This document shows positions 11,073 through 18,206 of a stretch of 22,189 nt of DNA, one piece after another. This stretch comes from a virus. Numbering within the stretch: the stretch's first letter is position 1; each line of letters opens with the position of its first letter. The translations under genes and the position numbers were made by a program. The notes under the pieces were generated by a model that was not told the DNA's origin, ran no database searches, and saw only the letters and a program-made list of their open reading frames with translations. The stretch is taken from the IMG/VR virus record IMGVR_UViG_3300031659_001719, positions 1-22,189 of that record, one strand, 5' to 3'.

Positions 11073-11485
11073 CATGGTTTTACAATAATGAAGAATTCTT
11101 AGATGTACCTGAAGATTATGTCGGATTCGTTTATATTATCACACAATTAGATACTGATAAAAAGTATGTTGGTAAAAAGCTATTTTGGTCTAAAAAGACC
11201 TTACCTCCACTCAAAGGTAAGATTCGCAAGAGACGTAAGATAGTTGAATCGGATTGGAAAGACTATTTTGGTAGTTCTGAGTTGGTGAAGCGTCTTCTAC
11301 TAGAGAATGGTAGAGGCGCTTTTCGCCGTAATATTCTACATCTTTGTAAATCTAAAGGAGAGATGGGGTATCTAGAAGCCCAGGAGCAATTTGATAGAAA
11401 CGTTCTGCTAGATGATTCGTATCTCAATGGTATCATCAACTGCAAAATTCACCGCAATCATGTAAAATCTTTAAAAAGAGGTTGA
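11069..11485 (+). CDS. GIY-YIG nuclease-like protein, apparent AUA start
   Basis: A 138-aa protein read from 11069. The GIY-YIG core is GFVYIITQLDTDKKYVGKK near the N-terminus, followed by the conserved ESDWKDYFGSS, FRRNILHLCKSKGEMGYLEAQ (candidate catalytic Arg and Glu) and NGIINCKIHRNH at the end. It resembles a small endonuclease family common in T4-like phages, whose members start a few residues before the WFYNNEEF-type segment. That point here is ATA (11069), with GAGGAG 8 nt upstream and the ATAA overlap with the previous stop. No ATG, GTG or TTG exists in frame until 11282, which is beyond the active-site core. The stop overlaps a promoter -35 box. Confidence 0.75.
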   Translation: MTWFYNNEEFLDVPEDYVGFVYIITQLDTDKKYVGKKLFWSKKTLPPLKGKIRKRRKIVESDWKDYFGSSELVKRLLLENGRGAFRRNILHLCKSKGEMGYLEAQEQFDRNVLLDDSYLNGIINCKIHRNHVKSLKRG

Positions 11486-11511
11486 CATTCGTTTCTAAAA
11501 TGATGTAATAT
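11482..11511 (+). promoter_or_regulatory. Sigma70-type promoter for the 11541 gene
   Basis: TTGACA (11482-11487) overlaps the stop codon of the nuclease gene. With an 18-nt spacer the -10 is TAATAT (11506-11511); an alternative TGTAAT gives 16 nt. Transcription would begin about 11517, leaving a leader of roughly 24 nt with an AAAAGGA ribosome site. Confidence 0.7.
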
Positions 11512-11527
11512 AGATACATCAGAAACG
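11490..11527 (+). promoter_or_regulatory. Compound inverted repeat over promoter (operator-like)
   Basis: Outer arms CGTTTC (11490-11495) and GAAACG (11522-11527) enclose inner arms TGATGTA (11501-11507) and TACATCA (11515-11521). The dyad spans spacer, -10 and start site. Because the left arms lie upstream of the predicted start they would not be transcribed, so a DNA operator is more likely than an RNA hairpin. Confidence 0.55.
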
Positions 11528-11540
11528 AAAAGGAATGACA

Positions 11541-12323
11541 ATGAACAAATCTCAGATAACTTACGATCAGATTATGTGTGAATGTGAGAGCGCCATTGAC
11601 TATCTAGTCGATCAATTGGTCGATATCAACAAAATGCATTCTCTAGAGACAAAGAGTTCGAACCTCCTCAAAATAGAACAGAGTTGCAGGAATTTGAAGC
11701 CCAAGTTCAGTCTGTATCGTAGGCTGATTGTTCTGAAGCCTGCTAAGAAATATGCAGCTAATATTGCGGAATATTATTCTCGCTTACAGAAAGAGCTACG
11801 AGAGTTGGTTGAGGATAAAACTCCAGAACTCGTCGAGTCTTATCAATTTCTCAAAATCCCACAGCATAAGAAGTATCTTGACTTTGTGAATTCTCTCATC
11901 GATGACGCCAATTCTTATGCGACGGGTCAGAAGAAGGTTCGTGTGAAGCGCAAGGTATCTTTCGAAAAAATAGTCTCAAAGTTAAAATACAAGGAGTTTG
12001 ATGCTGACCTTAAAATCAGCAGCATCGACCCCATTGTAATTCCACAGAGCGAAATACTGTTCGTTTTCAATACGAAGTATCGTGATTTGTTTATCTATCA
12101 AGCGAAGGATGGCGAGAAATTTTCTGTGAAGGGCACGACTCTTCAGAATTTCGACGAAGATAAATCCTTCAAGAAGAAAATTCGCAAACCAGAAGACGTG
12201 CTTAACAGCGTGTTAAAGACTACTAAACTTCGTGCTATCAGGGCGTTTGGTGAAATTAAAACCAAGCCTGGTATTGCTACGGGCCGCATCAACGGCGAAT
12301 GCATTCTATTACGAGCAATATAG
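11541..12323 (+). CDS. Conserved phage protein of unknown function
   Basis: A 260-aa protein. ATG 11541 is chosen over ATG 11535 because AAAAGGA (11528-11534) is 6-7 nt from the former and adjacent to the latter. The C-terminal half contains RKVSFEKIVSKLKYKEFD, then FNTKYRDLFIYQA, FSVKGTTLQNFDEDKS and IRKPEDVL, phrases I recognise from a T4-type phage family of unknown role. The N-terminal half is helical and very Lys-rich. It holds the first copy of a 33-nt exact repeat (codons reading KSSNLLKIEQS). It has its own promoter and is probably co-transcribed with the next gene, 9 nt away. Confidence 0.8.
   Translation: MNKSQITYDQIMCECESAIDYLVDQLVDINKMHSLETKSSNLLKIEQSCRNLKPKFSLYRRLIVLKPAKKYAANIAEYYSRLQKELRELVEDKTPELVESYQFLKIPQHKKYLDFVNSLIDDANSYATGQKKVRVKRKVSFEKIVSKLKYKEFDADLKISSIDPIVIPQSEILFVFNTKYRDLFIYQAKDGEKFSVKGTTLQNFDEDKSFKKKIRKPEDVLNSVLKTTKLRAIRAFGEIKTKPGIATGRINGECILLRAI
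11653..11685 (+). repeat. 33-nt exact direct repeat, copy 1
   Basis: Begins AGAGTTCGAACCTCC and ends ATAGAACAGAGTT; identical to 12440-12472. It lies inside the 11541 gene and includes the palindrome GTTCGAAC. Here codon position 2 is the first base of the repeat. Confidence 0.95.
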
Positions 12324-12332
12324 GAGATAAAA

Positions 12333-12779
12333 ATGGATATCACTTTTACACCAGATGACCTAGAAGTTGACGAAGTAGAATTTAAACTGGATAAGGAAAT
12401 GCTTTCCTCGAATGTGATTCTCTTTCCCAGGCGAAACACAGAGTTCGAACCTCCTCAAAATAGAACAGAGTTACACGAACGAATTCAAGAGGAGCAGGTA
12501 GAAGTTGCGATTGACATTGCAACTGAAGTCCTCGTTCAAACGCTAGGCTCACTACGAGATATGGGATTCAACATCGAAAAAACTGAAAAACTGGGATATG
12601 ATGCTGCTTTGATGCTAGAGTGCACCAAAGCGCTCATTATGAGAATGCAGGGTAACGATCACCCATTGCACAATAATCTTGAAAAAATTATCCCAATGGC
12701 AGAATTTGAGTCTGACCCTATGAGCTACTACACTCAGTTTTTGAATATTCTAAAGGGCGGTGCAGACGATATCGACTAA
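12333..12779 (+). CDS. Conserved acidic phage protein of unknown function
   Basis: A 148-aa protein behind AGGAGA with about 9 nt spacing. The N-terminal third is acidic and probably disordered (DDLEVDEVEFKLDKE), followed by NVILFPRR. A helical domain then runs through VAIDIATEVLVQTLGSLRDMGFNIEKTE, MLECTKALIMRMQGNDHPLHNN and an acidic end. The NVI(L/S)FP segment followed by a helical core and a DHP(L/F)H phrase matches a small T4-type marine phage family without assigned function. It contains the second copy of the 33-nt repeat, read here as TEFEPPQNRTEL. Confidence 0.75.
   Translation: MDITFTPDDLEVDEVEFKLDKEMLSSNVILFPRRNTEFEPPQNRTELHERIQEEQVEVAIDIATEVLVQTLGSLRDMGFNIEKTEKLGYDAALMLECTKALIMRMQGNDHPLHNNLEKIIPMAEFESDPMSYYTQFLNILKGGADDID
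12440..12472 (+). repeat. 33-nt exact direct repeat, copy 2
   Basis: Identical to 11653-11685, 787 nt downstream and in a different codon phase (first base is codon position 3). Flanking bases differ immediately on both sides. Confidence 0.95.
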
Positions 12780-12868
12780 TTTTTCATGTAAAAAATGAAA
12801 AAAATGAAAAAAGTGAAAAAATACACTTTAAATTGTCAAATTTTTTATAAAAAAAAGTGAAAAAGTGC
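12780..12868 (+). promoter_or_regulatory. A-tract leader with 9-nt repeats (UP-element-like)
   Basis: The gap upstream of the 12869 promoter is almost pure A/T. ATGAAAAAA, ATGAAAAAA and GTGAAAAAA follow each other at exactly 9-nt spacing (12795-12821), and GTGAAAAAGTG sits just before -35. TTTTTCAT (12780-12787) can pair with ATGAAAAA, giving a weak AT hairpin. It could serve as an UP element, a bent-DNA site or a poor terminator. Confidence 0.5.
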
Positions 12869-12897
12869 TTGACTTTTGTTTTGAAAACAGATATAAT
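12869..12897 (+). promoter_or_regulatory. Sigma70-type promoter with palindromic spacer (copy 1)
   Basis: TTGACT (12869-12874), 17-nt spacer, TATAAT (12892-12897). The spacer contains GTTTTGAAAAC (12878-12888), an 11-bp palindrome. The segment AAAGTGCTTGACTTTTG and beyond is shared with the promoter at 13493. It drives the GNAT-like gene, whose GTG is 33 nt downstream. Confidence 0.85.
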
Positions 12898-12929
12898 ATC
12901 TATATCGAATCGAGAAATGGAGAGTTAAC

Positions 12930-13466
12930 GTGGTTGCAAGAGTTCAAATGAGCAAAAGAGTTTCGCTTGGATACGGTAATCTAGACGACGTAGAACTCGT
13001 TGGCCGTGCTTTCGGATACGATATATACTTCGACTCTGATGAGTCTACATATAACACAGTGTGGGTTTATGACCGCAATGCGACTAGACGATTTCGCAAT
13101 TACGACGGCGACATGGAAACTCGCTATCGCATCGCTGCAAGTATAGACTTGACAAAGGAGCGATGTGGCTGGCACGTTGATCTGTTGAAGGTCGATAATC
13201 GATACAAGGGTAAAAACCTTGCTCTTAAAATTTACAAGTTCCTCATGAGGAAGATGAATATCACACTCATGGCTGGCTCTAGTCAATCTGCTGGCGGACA
13301 GTATGTCTGGAACAAACTAGCAAAGACTTCCGGCGTTGTAGTGTATGCTAAGAAGTCTCCCTACTCTAAGGTGGTCGACTTTCCCAAAGCAGGAAAGCGT
13401 GAATTGGCAAGTGAGTTGTTTGACCTGTACGATAGCAGAGCAGAAATGTTTGCTGTTGCTGTGTGA
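12930..13466 (+). CDS. GNAT-fold acetyltransferase-like protein
   Basis: A 178-aa protein starting on GTG, 5 nt after GGAGAG. The C-terminal half looks like a GNAT core: a strand CGWHVDLLKVDNRYKGKNLALKIYKFLM with the acetyl-CoA loop R-Y-K-G-K-N-L-A (family pattern R/Q-x-x-G-x-G/A, with Asn in place of the second Gly). SSQSAGGQYVWNKLAK follows, an arrangement typical of phage GNAT-like proteins. The N-terminal half is beta-rich (YDIYFDSDESTYNTVWVYD). Substrate unknown; modification of a host protein early in infection is one possibility. It stands alone between two near-identical promoters, which suggests independent early control. Confidence 0.7.
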   Translation: MVARVQMSKRVSLGYGNLDDVELVGRAFGYDIYFDSDESTYNTVWVYDRNATRRFRNYDGDMETRYRIAASIDLTKERCGWHVDLLKVDNRYKGKNLALKIYKFLMRKMNITLMAGSSQSAGGQYVWNKLAKTSGVVVYAKKSPYSKVVDFPKAGKRELASELFDLYDSRAEMFAVAV

Positions 13467-13492
13467 ATTTTGTAAAAAAGTCGAGAAAGTGC

Positions 13493-13521
13493 TTGACTTT
13501 TGTTTTCAAAACTGTTATTAT
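13493..13521 (+). promoter_or_regulatory. Sigma70-type promoter with palindromic spacer (copy 2)
   Basis: TTGACT (13493-13498), 17-nt spacer, TATTAT (13516-13521). The spacer has GTTTTCAAAAC (13502-13512), the reverse complement of the 12878 palindrome. Drives the DUF932 gene, which begins at 13556 behind AAGGAAG. Confidence 0.85.
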
Positions 13522-13555
13522 ATATATATTGAATGCTTGAAAAGGAAGACTAAAA

Positions 13556-16035: not shown

Positions 16036-16333
16036 ACGTTGTTGGGTTACGTTTACGAAGGTGAACGGCGATATGAGGACGATGTGGTGCACTCTTCAGA
16101 CAAAATATTTACCAGAGCAAAAAGACATCGAAGAAGTGCTTAATAAGCCAAATTTTGAAGAATATCACAGCAGACATTGGAAAAATCTACCAGAAGATCC
16201 TAAATCGATTGCTGTGTGGGATTTAGAGAAGAGTGCTTGGCGTTCTTTTCGTTTGGATTCCATGGTTAAATTTGAAATTAATAGCTTAAACAGCAATGCA
16301 AAACAGAGTGATTTTTTATGGTCGAAATCGTAG
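15998..16333 (+). CDS. SH3-like beta-barrel (DUF2693/WYL-like) phage protein
   Basis: GGAGG at 15988-15992 favours ATG 15998 (5 nt) over ATG 15995. Residues about 4-37 read ILEKLLAERCWVTFTKVNG and MRTMWCTLQTKYLP, the hallmark of the small phage family annotated as DUF2693 or SH3-fold (VxFTKxDGxxRxMxCTL...LP). The end SIAVWDLEKSAWRSFRLDSMVKFE supplies the last strands of the barrel. Such proteins are widespread in T4-type phages and may bind nucleic acid, but no function is known. The stop lies 16 nt into the glycosyltransferase gene. Confidence 0.75.
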   Translation: MDYSVILEKLLAERCWVTFTKVNGDMRTMWCTLQTKYLPEQKDIEEVLNKPNFEEYHSRHWKNLPEDPKSIAVWDLEKSAWRSFRLDSMVKFEINSLNSNAKQSDFLWSKS

Positions 16334-17265
16334 CAGGTAAGCTTGTTCGCAATGAAATTAATGCGAATGCGATGGGTGGAACTGAAATGATGGCACTGGG
16401 AATGAAGCAACGCATTCCCCAAAAGCTGCTAAAGAAATTTCAGATTATCCACTCACGCACTCGTGGACTGCGAGACGATTTAAAAAAAATTCTCGTATGT
16501 CACGACCTAGCTGGAGACCCTGAAGCAGCACATCTAAAAGATGGTGGCTATAAGAAGTACGACAAACTCGTATTCGTTTCTCAGTGGCAGTTTCAGCAAT
16601 ATCATGATTTTTTAGGTGTTCCATATAGTCATTCTTATATTCTGAAGAATGCTATTGAGCCTATTGACGAACATGAAAAGCCGAAGGATGGCAAGATTCG
16701 TATCATCTACCATACAACGCCTCATCGTGGATTAAGTTTATTGTATCCTATCTTCGATGCTCTATCAAAACAGTACAAAAACATCGAGCTTGATGTGTAT
16801 AGTTCCTTCAAGATTTATGGATGGGAGCAAAGAGACGAGCCATACAAGGACTTGTTTGAAAAACTTAAACAGCATCCACAAATCAATTATCATGGTTCAG
16901 TATCTAACGAAGAGGTTAGAAAGGCGCTACAGAACGCTCACATCTTCGCCTATCCGTCTATCTGGCAAGAGACCTCTTGTATTGCATTGATTGAAGCTAT
17001 GTCTGCTGGTTGTCTATGTGTGCATCCAAACTATGCTGCTCTACCAGAGACCGCTGCTAATATGACTGCTATGTATCAGTGGGATGAGGATGCACAAATA
17101 CATGCTAATAGGGCATACAGTTATTTGAAGAATGCTATAGAGCATGTCAGCACATATGGTGTGCTAGATATGAATAGGCAAATACACGATACGAACTATG
17201 CTTTCAATTGGACTCGCCGTCAAAAAGAATGGATTCAATTTTTATCATCGCACCCATCTTTTTAG
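16318..17265 (+). CDS. GT-B glycosyltransferase (GT4-like)
   Basis: A 315-aa enzyme expected to transfer a sugar from a nucleotide sugar to an unknown acceptor. The N-terminal Rossmann part has NAMGGTE (residues 17-23), a usual opening of GT4 proteins, and LVCHDLAGDPEA. The donor-binding half begins IRIIYHTTPHRGLSLLYPIFDAL, includes INYHGSVSNEEVRKALQNAHIFAYPSIWQETS and the EX7E motif (Glu218, Glu226) in ETSCIALIEAMSAG. Length is short for GT4 (usually 350-400). Possible targets are phage DNA bases, host surface or virion protein. It may be weakly translated (GAG-only ribosome site). Confidence 0.88.
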   Translation: MVEIVAGKLVRNEINANAMGGTEMMALGMKQRIPQKLLKKFQIIHSRTRGLRDDLKKILVCHDLAGDPEAAHLKDGGYKKYDKLVFVSQWQFQQYHDFLGVPYSHSYILKNAIEPIDEHEKPKDGKIRIIYHTTPHRGLSLLYPIFDALSKQYKNIELDVYSSFKIYGWEQRDEPYKDLFEKLKQHPQINYHGSVSNEEVRKALQNAHIFAYPSIWQETSCIALIEAMSAGCLCVHPNYAALPETAANMTAMYQWDEDAQIHANRAYSYLKNAIEHVSTYGVLDMNRQIHDTNYAFNWTRRQKEWIQFLSSHPSF

Positions 17266-17275
17266 AAAAAAAGAT
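17256..17275 (+). terminator. AT hairpin at end of glycosyltransferase gene
   Basis: ATCTTTTT (17256-17263) and AAAAAGAT (17268-17275) form an 8-bp stem with a 4-nt loop, overlapping the stop codon and touching the next -35. There is no U-tract after it, so it is at best a weak terminator or mRNA end. Confidence 0.35.
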
Positions 17276-17303
17276 TGACATTTATTTACATATGATATAT
17301 GAT
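17275..17303 (+). promoter_or_regulatory. Sigma70-type promoter for the Rnh-PhoH block
   Basis: TTGACA (17275-17280), 17-nt spacer, TATGAT (17298-17303). The region around -10 is a run of overlapping ATATGAT/GATATAT repeats. Transcription should start near 17310, about 30 nt ahead of the GTG start at 17340. Confidence 0.8.
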
Positions 17304-17339
17304 ATATATTAAGTATAGTGAACAACAAAGGATAAGAAA

Positions 17340-18206
17340 GTGATTCTAGTTGACATGAATCAAGTTATGATTAGTAACGTCATGGTTCAAATTGGCAACC
17401 ATCACAATGTTGAGTTTGAAGAAAGTCTCATTCGACATATGATTCTCAATTCAATTCGCTCGTATCGTCGAAAGTTCAAAAGTGATTATGGAGAACTTGT
17501 TCTCTGCTTTGACGATAAGAACTACTGGCGACGAGACATTTTTCCATACTATAAGGCAAATCGTAAAAAGTCTCGTGAGTCTTCTGAACTCAACTGGAAT
17601 GAACTATTTCGTATTCTAAATATTGTGCGAGATGAACTCAAAGAAGTTTTTCCATACAAGGTAGTTCAAGTTGACCGTGCTGAAGCAGATGATGCTATTG
17701 GCACAATTTGTCATAAGTTTGGCGTTGAATTGAACGCTGGTTCTACAGAAAAGATTTTGATTCTTTCTGCTGATAAAGACTTTATTCAACTACATAAGTA
17801 TGCTAATGTAACGCAATACGATCCTATTCGTAAGCGCTGGGTTCGTCATGCTAACCCTATCCAGTATATATTGGAGCACATTATGAAGGGTGATACTGGC
17901 GATGGTGTTCCAAATATGCTATCGCCCGATGATTGTCTTGTTATGAAAACTCGTCAAAAGCCTATGACACAAAAGCGTATCACACAATATACTACTGAAC
18001 TTAAAAATGATTGTATGTCGAACGAAACAATCCTTCGTGGCTATCAACGCAATAAAGCTATGATTGATTTGTCTATGGTGCCCGAATATATTCAGAAGCA
18101 GGTAATGACTAAATACAACGAAGCAGGGGGCGATAGATCAAAATTGTTCAACTACTTTATTGAAAAACGATTGAAAAATCTTATTGAAAACATAGGTGAA
18201 TTTTAA
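17340..18206 (+). CDS. rnh: T4 RNase H-like 5'-3' exonuclease (FEN/PIN family)
   Basis: A 288-aa nuclease that would remove RNA primers from lagging strands. Start is GTG with AAAGGA 7 nt before. Acidic metal ligands are spread as in T4 Rnh: Asp5 (LVDMNQ), Asp58 (CFDD), Glu115, Asp117 and Asp118 (AEADDAIG), Asp145 and Asp147 (LSADKDFIQL), Asp185 and Asp188 (GDTGDGVPN). The YYKANRKKSRE segment matches the basic arch region. Length is close to T4 Rnh (305 aa). First gene of its transcription unit, directly abutting the next gene. Confidence 0.92.
   Translation: MILVDMNQVMISNVMVQIGNHHNVEFEESLIRHMILNSIRSYRRKFKSDYGELVLCFDDKNYWRRDIFPYYKANRKKSRESSELNWNELFRILNIVRDELKEVFPYKVVQVDRAEADDAIGTICHKFGVELNAGSTEKILILSADKDFIQLHKYANVTQYDPIRKRWVRHANPIQYILEHIMKGDTGDGVPNMLSPDDCLVMKTRQKPMTQKRITQYTTELKNDCMSNETILRGYQRNKAMIDLSMVPEYIQKQVMTKYNEAGGDRSKLFNYFIEKRLKNLIENIGEF

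Follow-up and report, generated by a model that had tools for sequence, protein, structure and literature searches.

Two adjoining genes of a T4-like virus, both on the + strand, share a 33-nt exact direct repeat that very probably records a short templated duplication, in which DNA of the downstream gene (gene 2) was copied into the upstream gene (gene 1). On comparison with relatives, the repeat appears to be a well-preserved scar of a copying error or of recombination rather than a regulatory signal.

Two neighbouring genes and the repeat that they share

The window, i.e. the whole 22,189-base virus record that was analysed, is T4-like in its gene content, with ribonucleotide reductase subunits, a glycosyltransferase, an RNase-H-type exonuclease and PhoH. 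The features of the locus are collected in Table 1. Gene 1 has an N-terminus ∼100 aa shorter than those of its relatives in named phages, and a scan of genome_contigs found no relative of it; a protein search with gene 2 likewise returned no match. The AlphaFold model of gene 1 (mean pLDDT 49, pTM 0.34) is too poor to use.

Table 1. Features of the gene 1/gene 2 locus in window coordinates
Feature	Position	Strand	Description
Gene 1, recipient	11535..12323	+	262 aa, function unknown; phrog_11903-like over residues 55-261
Lineage-specific insertion in gene 1, 87 bp (29 codons)	11610..11696	+	Placed by alignment, edges uncertain by about ten bases either side
Possible full copied tract, 47 nt	11646..11692	+	43/47 identical to gene 2 (12433-12479)
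Copied 33-mer, derived copy, within the insertion	11653..11685	+	Read as KSSNLLKIEQS
Gene 2, donor	12333..12779	+	148 aa, function unknown; weak phrog_23114 match, E 3.2e-5
Native 33-mer of gene 2, ancestral copy	12440..12472	+	Read as TEFEPPQNRTEL; FEPPQN in gene 2 of 8/8 relatives

The first-pass annotation had reported an exact repeat in two genes and in different frames, with flanks that diverge at once, and this observation is partly confirmed. The repeat is real: the two copies, 787 bp apart, are identical at 33/33 nt, the exact match stops at both ends, and the codon phase differs between the genes. The flanks, however, do not diverge at once, as the outer 7 nt on either side still match at 5/7 positions, so that with four mismatches, all within those 14 nt, the repeat grows to 47 nt at 91% identity. 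Chance is a poor source of such a match. The 33-mer exceeds every other exact direct repeat of the window, whereas the longest repeat in each of 100 simulated Markov-1 windows averaged 14.2 nt and never exceeded 18 nt. The window holds two copies only. A 28–29 nt core gave no match in genome_contigs, and in IMG/VR it was found in two contigs of the same lineage and in no others; DNA searches of phages and plasmids returned weak matches only (best E 2 and 0.9), and a DNA search of phages with window positions 11200-13000 returned none.

The spacing of the copies also sets this repeat apart on the sister contig G001 (75.8 kb), where the distance between copies is divisible by three in 72 of the 73 exact direct repeats of at least 20 nt, with the 33-mer as the sole exception. 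Most of these repeats lie at 64–74 kb, in a stretch that resembles repetitive structural genes, and such spacing is what repetitive proteins should give; that of the 33-mer fits copying at the DNA level instead. On contig G003, four of seven repeats are spaced in this way; the three exceptions are a 26-nt tandem where gene 1 meets gene 2 and a 20–22 nt repeat that forms two pairs.

The surroundings of gene 1 differ among phages. Its homologue in phiM19, phiN3 and RHph_I1_18 follows the glycosyltransferase gene and stands one gene before RNase H, whereas the window has the glycosyltransferase gene directly beside the exonuclease gene (16318-18206), with no gene 1 between them; gene 1 thus seems to have relocated. 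Upstream of it, at 11488-11526, a putative promoter (TTGACA and TAATAT, picked out by eye) sits inside a long imperfect palindrome, CGTTTCT..TGATGTA..TACATCA.GAAACG, both arms of which differ from the window in the relatives, and which is possibly an operator.

Gene 1 carries an insertion that its relatives lack

Alignments of gene 1 and of gene 2, used as queries, gathered eight more distant contigs (L022, L023, L024/L033, L025/L007, L026/L032, L027/L031, L028/L034 and L029/L030), which are not all independent: in this region L022 equals L023 and both resemble L024 at 99%, and L027 and L029 are 99.6% identical. Gene 2 of the window is about 76–81% identical in DNA to that of the four relatives compared. 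In gene 1, two fixed anchors lie 105 bp apart in the window lineage and 18 bp apart in 8/8 relatives, none of which has the insertion. The four relatives checked for exact edges all show the alignment gap that defines the insertion in Table 1, and in a blastn comparison of the window with contig G003 the match ends at 11603 and restarts at 11697. Roughly the right-hand half of the inserted sequence is gene 2 DNA, with the 33-mer inside it in the other reading frame. In gene 2, by contrast, FEPPQN stands at the same place in 8/8 relatives. Given a gene 2 that has FEPPQN and a gene 1 that lacks the insertion throughout the relatives, gene 2 is the donor and gene 1 the recipient. The alignment with relatives that the first-pass annotation had proposed as a check thus marks the gene 2 copy as the native one, and its suggestion of recent copying or a recombination scar at the DNA level is supported by the eight contigs without the insertion.

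Could both genes have held the sequence ancestrally, the relatives having lost the copy in gene 1? Relatives of gene 1 do differ in length at this place, in keeping with such a history. An alignment with ten gene 1 proteins of farther relatives, one taken from IMG/VR and the other nine from named phages, shows none that spans the complete insertion, and the spacing in phiM19, phiN3 and RHph_I1_18 is as short as in the close relatives, the others being intermediate. In one protein alignment, residues of the distant L008/L009 sit opposite the insertion; the N-terminus of L008/L009 is much longer, and the placement is regarded as a probable effect of that length on the gaps. The shared 18-bp spacing of the eight relatives, together with the similarly short forms in the three named phages, argues against such a loss. 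Moreover, the 33-nt segment in the relatives' gene 2 is identical at only 22–28/33 nt, with synonymous changes among the differences, and an ancient copy should not have stayed at 33/33 while gene 2 drifted this far, unless by gene conversion. Ancestral presence in both genes is accordingly a poor contender, of very low probability. The same comparison dates the duplication: with 33/33 identity to gene 2 of its own lineage and 22–28/33 to that of the relatives, the copy was made after the split from them.

The left ∼40–50 bp of the insertion gave no convincing donor in the window, in five contigs or in two contigs aligned in full, and the best score of this half against the window was reached by 22/100 and 8/100 shuffles on the two strands. 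Extending the match with gaps into the part of gene 2 that precedes the repeat gave a result that depends on the scoring, being equalled in 9/400 shuffles with lenient gaps, 50/400 with strict gaps and 6/200 in an earlier run; it is suggestive at most of a longer copied tract, and nothing comparable appeared with gene 2 of two relatives. Extension of the repeat to the right was not significant (64/300). The left half was either copied from gene 2 and then scrambled, or it came from DNA outside the sequences searched.

Both copies are present in sister contigs

Both copies are also found on two IMG/VR contigs, 3300031510_000007 and 3300031721_000685, which differ from the window at 13 and 14 of 1366 aligned positions of the locus and from each other at 1 of 1369; the latter contig is 99.7% identical to the window across 14.9 kb. 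A single repeat of read-length scale in metagenome contigs is the kind of feature that misassembly can produce. Here three contigs with substitutions between them carry both copies and the same insertion, which makes an assembly artefact very unlikely, its probability being close to nil. The copying, moreover, preceded the divergence of the three known members of the lineage, so that the 'recent' of the first-pass annotation holds with respect to the split from the relatives and fails with respect to the split between the window and the two other strains. Over 11606-11692 one base differs between the window and these strains, and over the rest of gene 1 (702 nt) there are nine differences. Window and sister differ in gene 1 by seven synonymous changes (∼163 sites) and three non-synonymous changes (∼623 sites), one of the latter within the insertion; these changes, few as they are, can only hint at continued purifying selection on gene 1.

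A functional site or a mobile element would account poorly for the repeat

Selection on the DNA or RNA itself, with two copies of a functional site (for protein or small-RNA binding, or a T-loop mimic) held identical, would account for 33/33 identity and for the confinement of the four differences to the 14 outer nt. The first-pass annotation had further pointed to a match to the tRNA T-loop consensus and to an 8-bp palindrome. The motif does fit, as GTTCGAACC agrees with the consensus it quoted and holds GTTCGAAC, but finding the 9-base pattern six times in the window against 2.8 expected is no significant excess (six being reached in 7/100 shuffles), and the palindrome is absent from gene 2 in 8/8 relatives. 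The gene 1 copy is itself absent from all eight, gene 2 varies at synonymous positions, the window has no match to an Rfam family, and the RNA folds of 61-nt segments around either copy are no more stable than those of shuffled sequences (z 0.33 and −0.90). With codon-level drift in gene 2 and RNA that behaves like shuffled sequence, the proposed protein- or sRNA-binding site finds no backing, and a functional site is very improbable.

A tRNA T-arm or a mimic of one was considered and rejected: the window has no tRNA gene, and the palindrome is absent in 8/8 relatives. In a tRNA scan of pieces of two contigs, G003 proved to have four tRNA genes and a tmRNA gene, and G001 none; the ARAGORN tmRNA gene lies at L040 616-938, with the tag ANDNFVSQEYALAA.

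An in-frame insertion of ∼90 bp within a gene also resembles the Rickettsia palindromic elements, small repeats of a mobile or selfish nature that insert into coding regions. Such a repeat should be dispersed, whereas the window has two copies, IMG/VR adds only the two contigs of the same lineage and genome_contigs none, and one copy belongs to the ordinary ancestral coding sequence of gene 2. A mobile repeat is thus highly improbable, and an element of the Rickettsia type was set aside for want of multiple dispersed copies and of a stable hairpin in the 61-nt segments.

Proposed mechanism of the duplication

The short templated duplication from gene 2 into gene 1 may have proceeded as follows. 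While an ancestral phage was replicating its DNA or repairing a break, a DNA end within the 5′ portion of gene 1, either still growing or broken, would have copied about 33–47 nt of gene 2, ∼790 bp downstream, or alternatively of gene 2 of a co-infecting relative; the copied end would then have been rejoined within gene 1, leaving the 87-bp insertion with its right half from gene 2. The donor segment can be read through in the frames used by gene 1 and by gene 2, and the third is closed by a stop. As the length of 87 bp is divisible by three and the borrowed segment carries no stop in the frame of gene 1, that gene stayed open and gained 29 residues, some of them from gene 2 DNA read in another frame. 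The copying is attributed, by inference, to template switching or to illegitimate recombination, and a single origin of the whole 87 bp is inferred likewise. A slipped-strand origin, also raised in the first-pass annotation, is a poor fit with a copy 787 bp away. RecA-like proteins above the Pfam cut-off are present on contigs G001, G002 and G003 and were not found on the shorter contigs G004 and G005. In T4 itself, UvsX and Dda cooperate in template switching, according to the outline in a review (PMC3016280), and evolved T4 genomes rearrange via microhomologies of 6–10 bp, as summarized in PMC9391042.

A bolder proposal is that the gene 1/gene 2 unit is a duplication hotspot that repeatedly supplies raw coding sequence, as the dispersed 33–47 nt copy here and the 41-bp junction tandems of relatives, and that the out-of-frame copy now serves gene 1 as a functional N-terminal extension maintained by selection. 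If true, new protein sequence would have been drawn from a neighbour's codons read in another frame; this combined proposal is, on the present sequences, unlikely.

Short duplications occur elsewhere in the locus. Tandem copies with a 41-bp period are present at the gene 1/gene 2 junction in four of the eight relatives (L025, L027, L028 and L029), so that short duplications are not a one-off here; a single event may nevertheless underlie all four tandems. An extra 68-aa ORF with no PHROG match separates gene 1 from gene 2 in L026, L027 (3681-3887), L028 and L029, and beside it L027, L028 and L029 have a 41-bp-period tandem copy of the start of gene 2. Further downstream in the window, a 61-nt repeat at 84% identity (12850-12910 and 13474-13534; TTGACTTTTGTTTT...) stands ahead of two genes and looks like a pair of duplicated promoters; its exact core is 27 nt in the sister loci and 21 nt in the window.

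Significance and relation to known systems

The locus is a natural example in which donor, recipient, the state before insertion and the relative dating are all visible. It indicates that a T4-like phage can gain coding sequence by an out-of-frame paste from another gene, and that a long stretch shared unchanged by two genes should not be taken for a regulatory site without a comparison with relatives, which decides the matter. Among the titles that a literature search listed, none concerned this locus or, in any phage, a templated insertion placed out of frame.

A study of template switching in T4-like DNA reportedly describes replacement between existing imperfect repeats. DNA is said to have been copied there from site to site, as here; in the present case, however, new sequence was inserted, in natural phages and with no prior repeat seen between the two genes. 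Microhomology-mediated segmental amplification and deletion in T4, as outlined in PMC9391042, is likewise a rearrangement of a T4-like phage at short homologies, but it concerns whole loci in tandem, whereas here 33–47 nt were placed ∼790 bp away and out of frame. The template switching that PMC8604942 sketches as a cause of altered proteins in yeast is also non-adaptive and rewrites several codons at once; it involves inverted repeats and substitutions, in contrast to an insertion in direct orientation. Rickettsia palindromic elements and other bacterial MITEs within genes, in the account of PMC2229807, are short in-frame insertions that are tolerated, as this one is, but they form multi-copy palindromic families, whereas gene 1 holds a single copy of a segment of its neighbour. 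The kind of mutation is thus already known, and the example is new.
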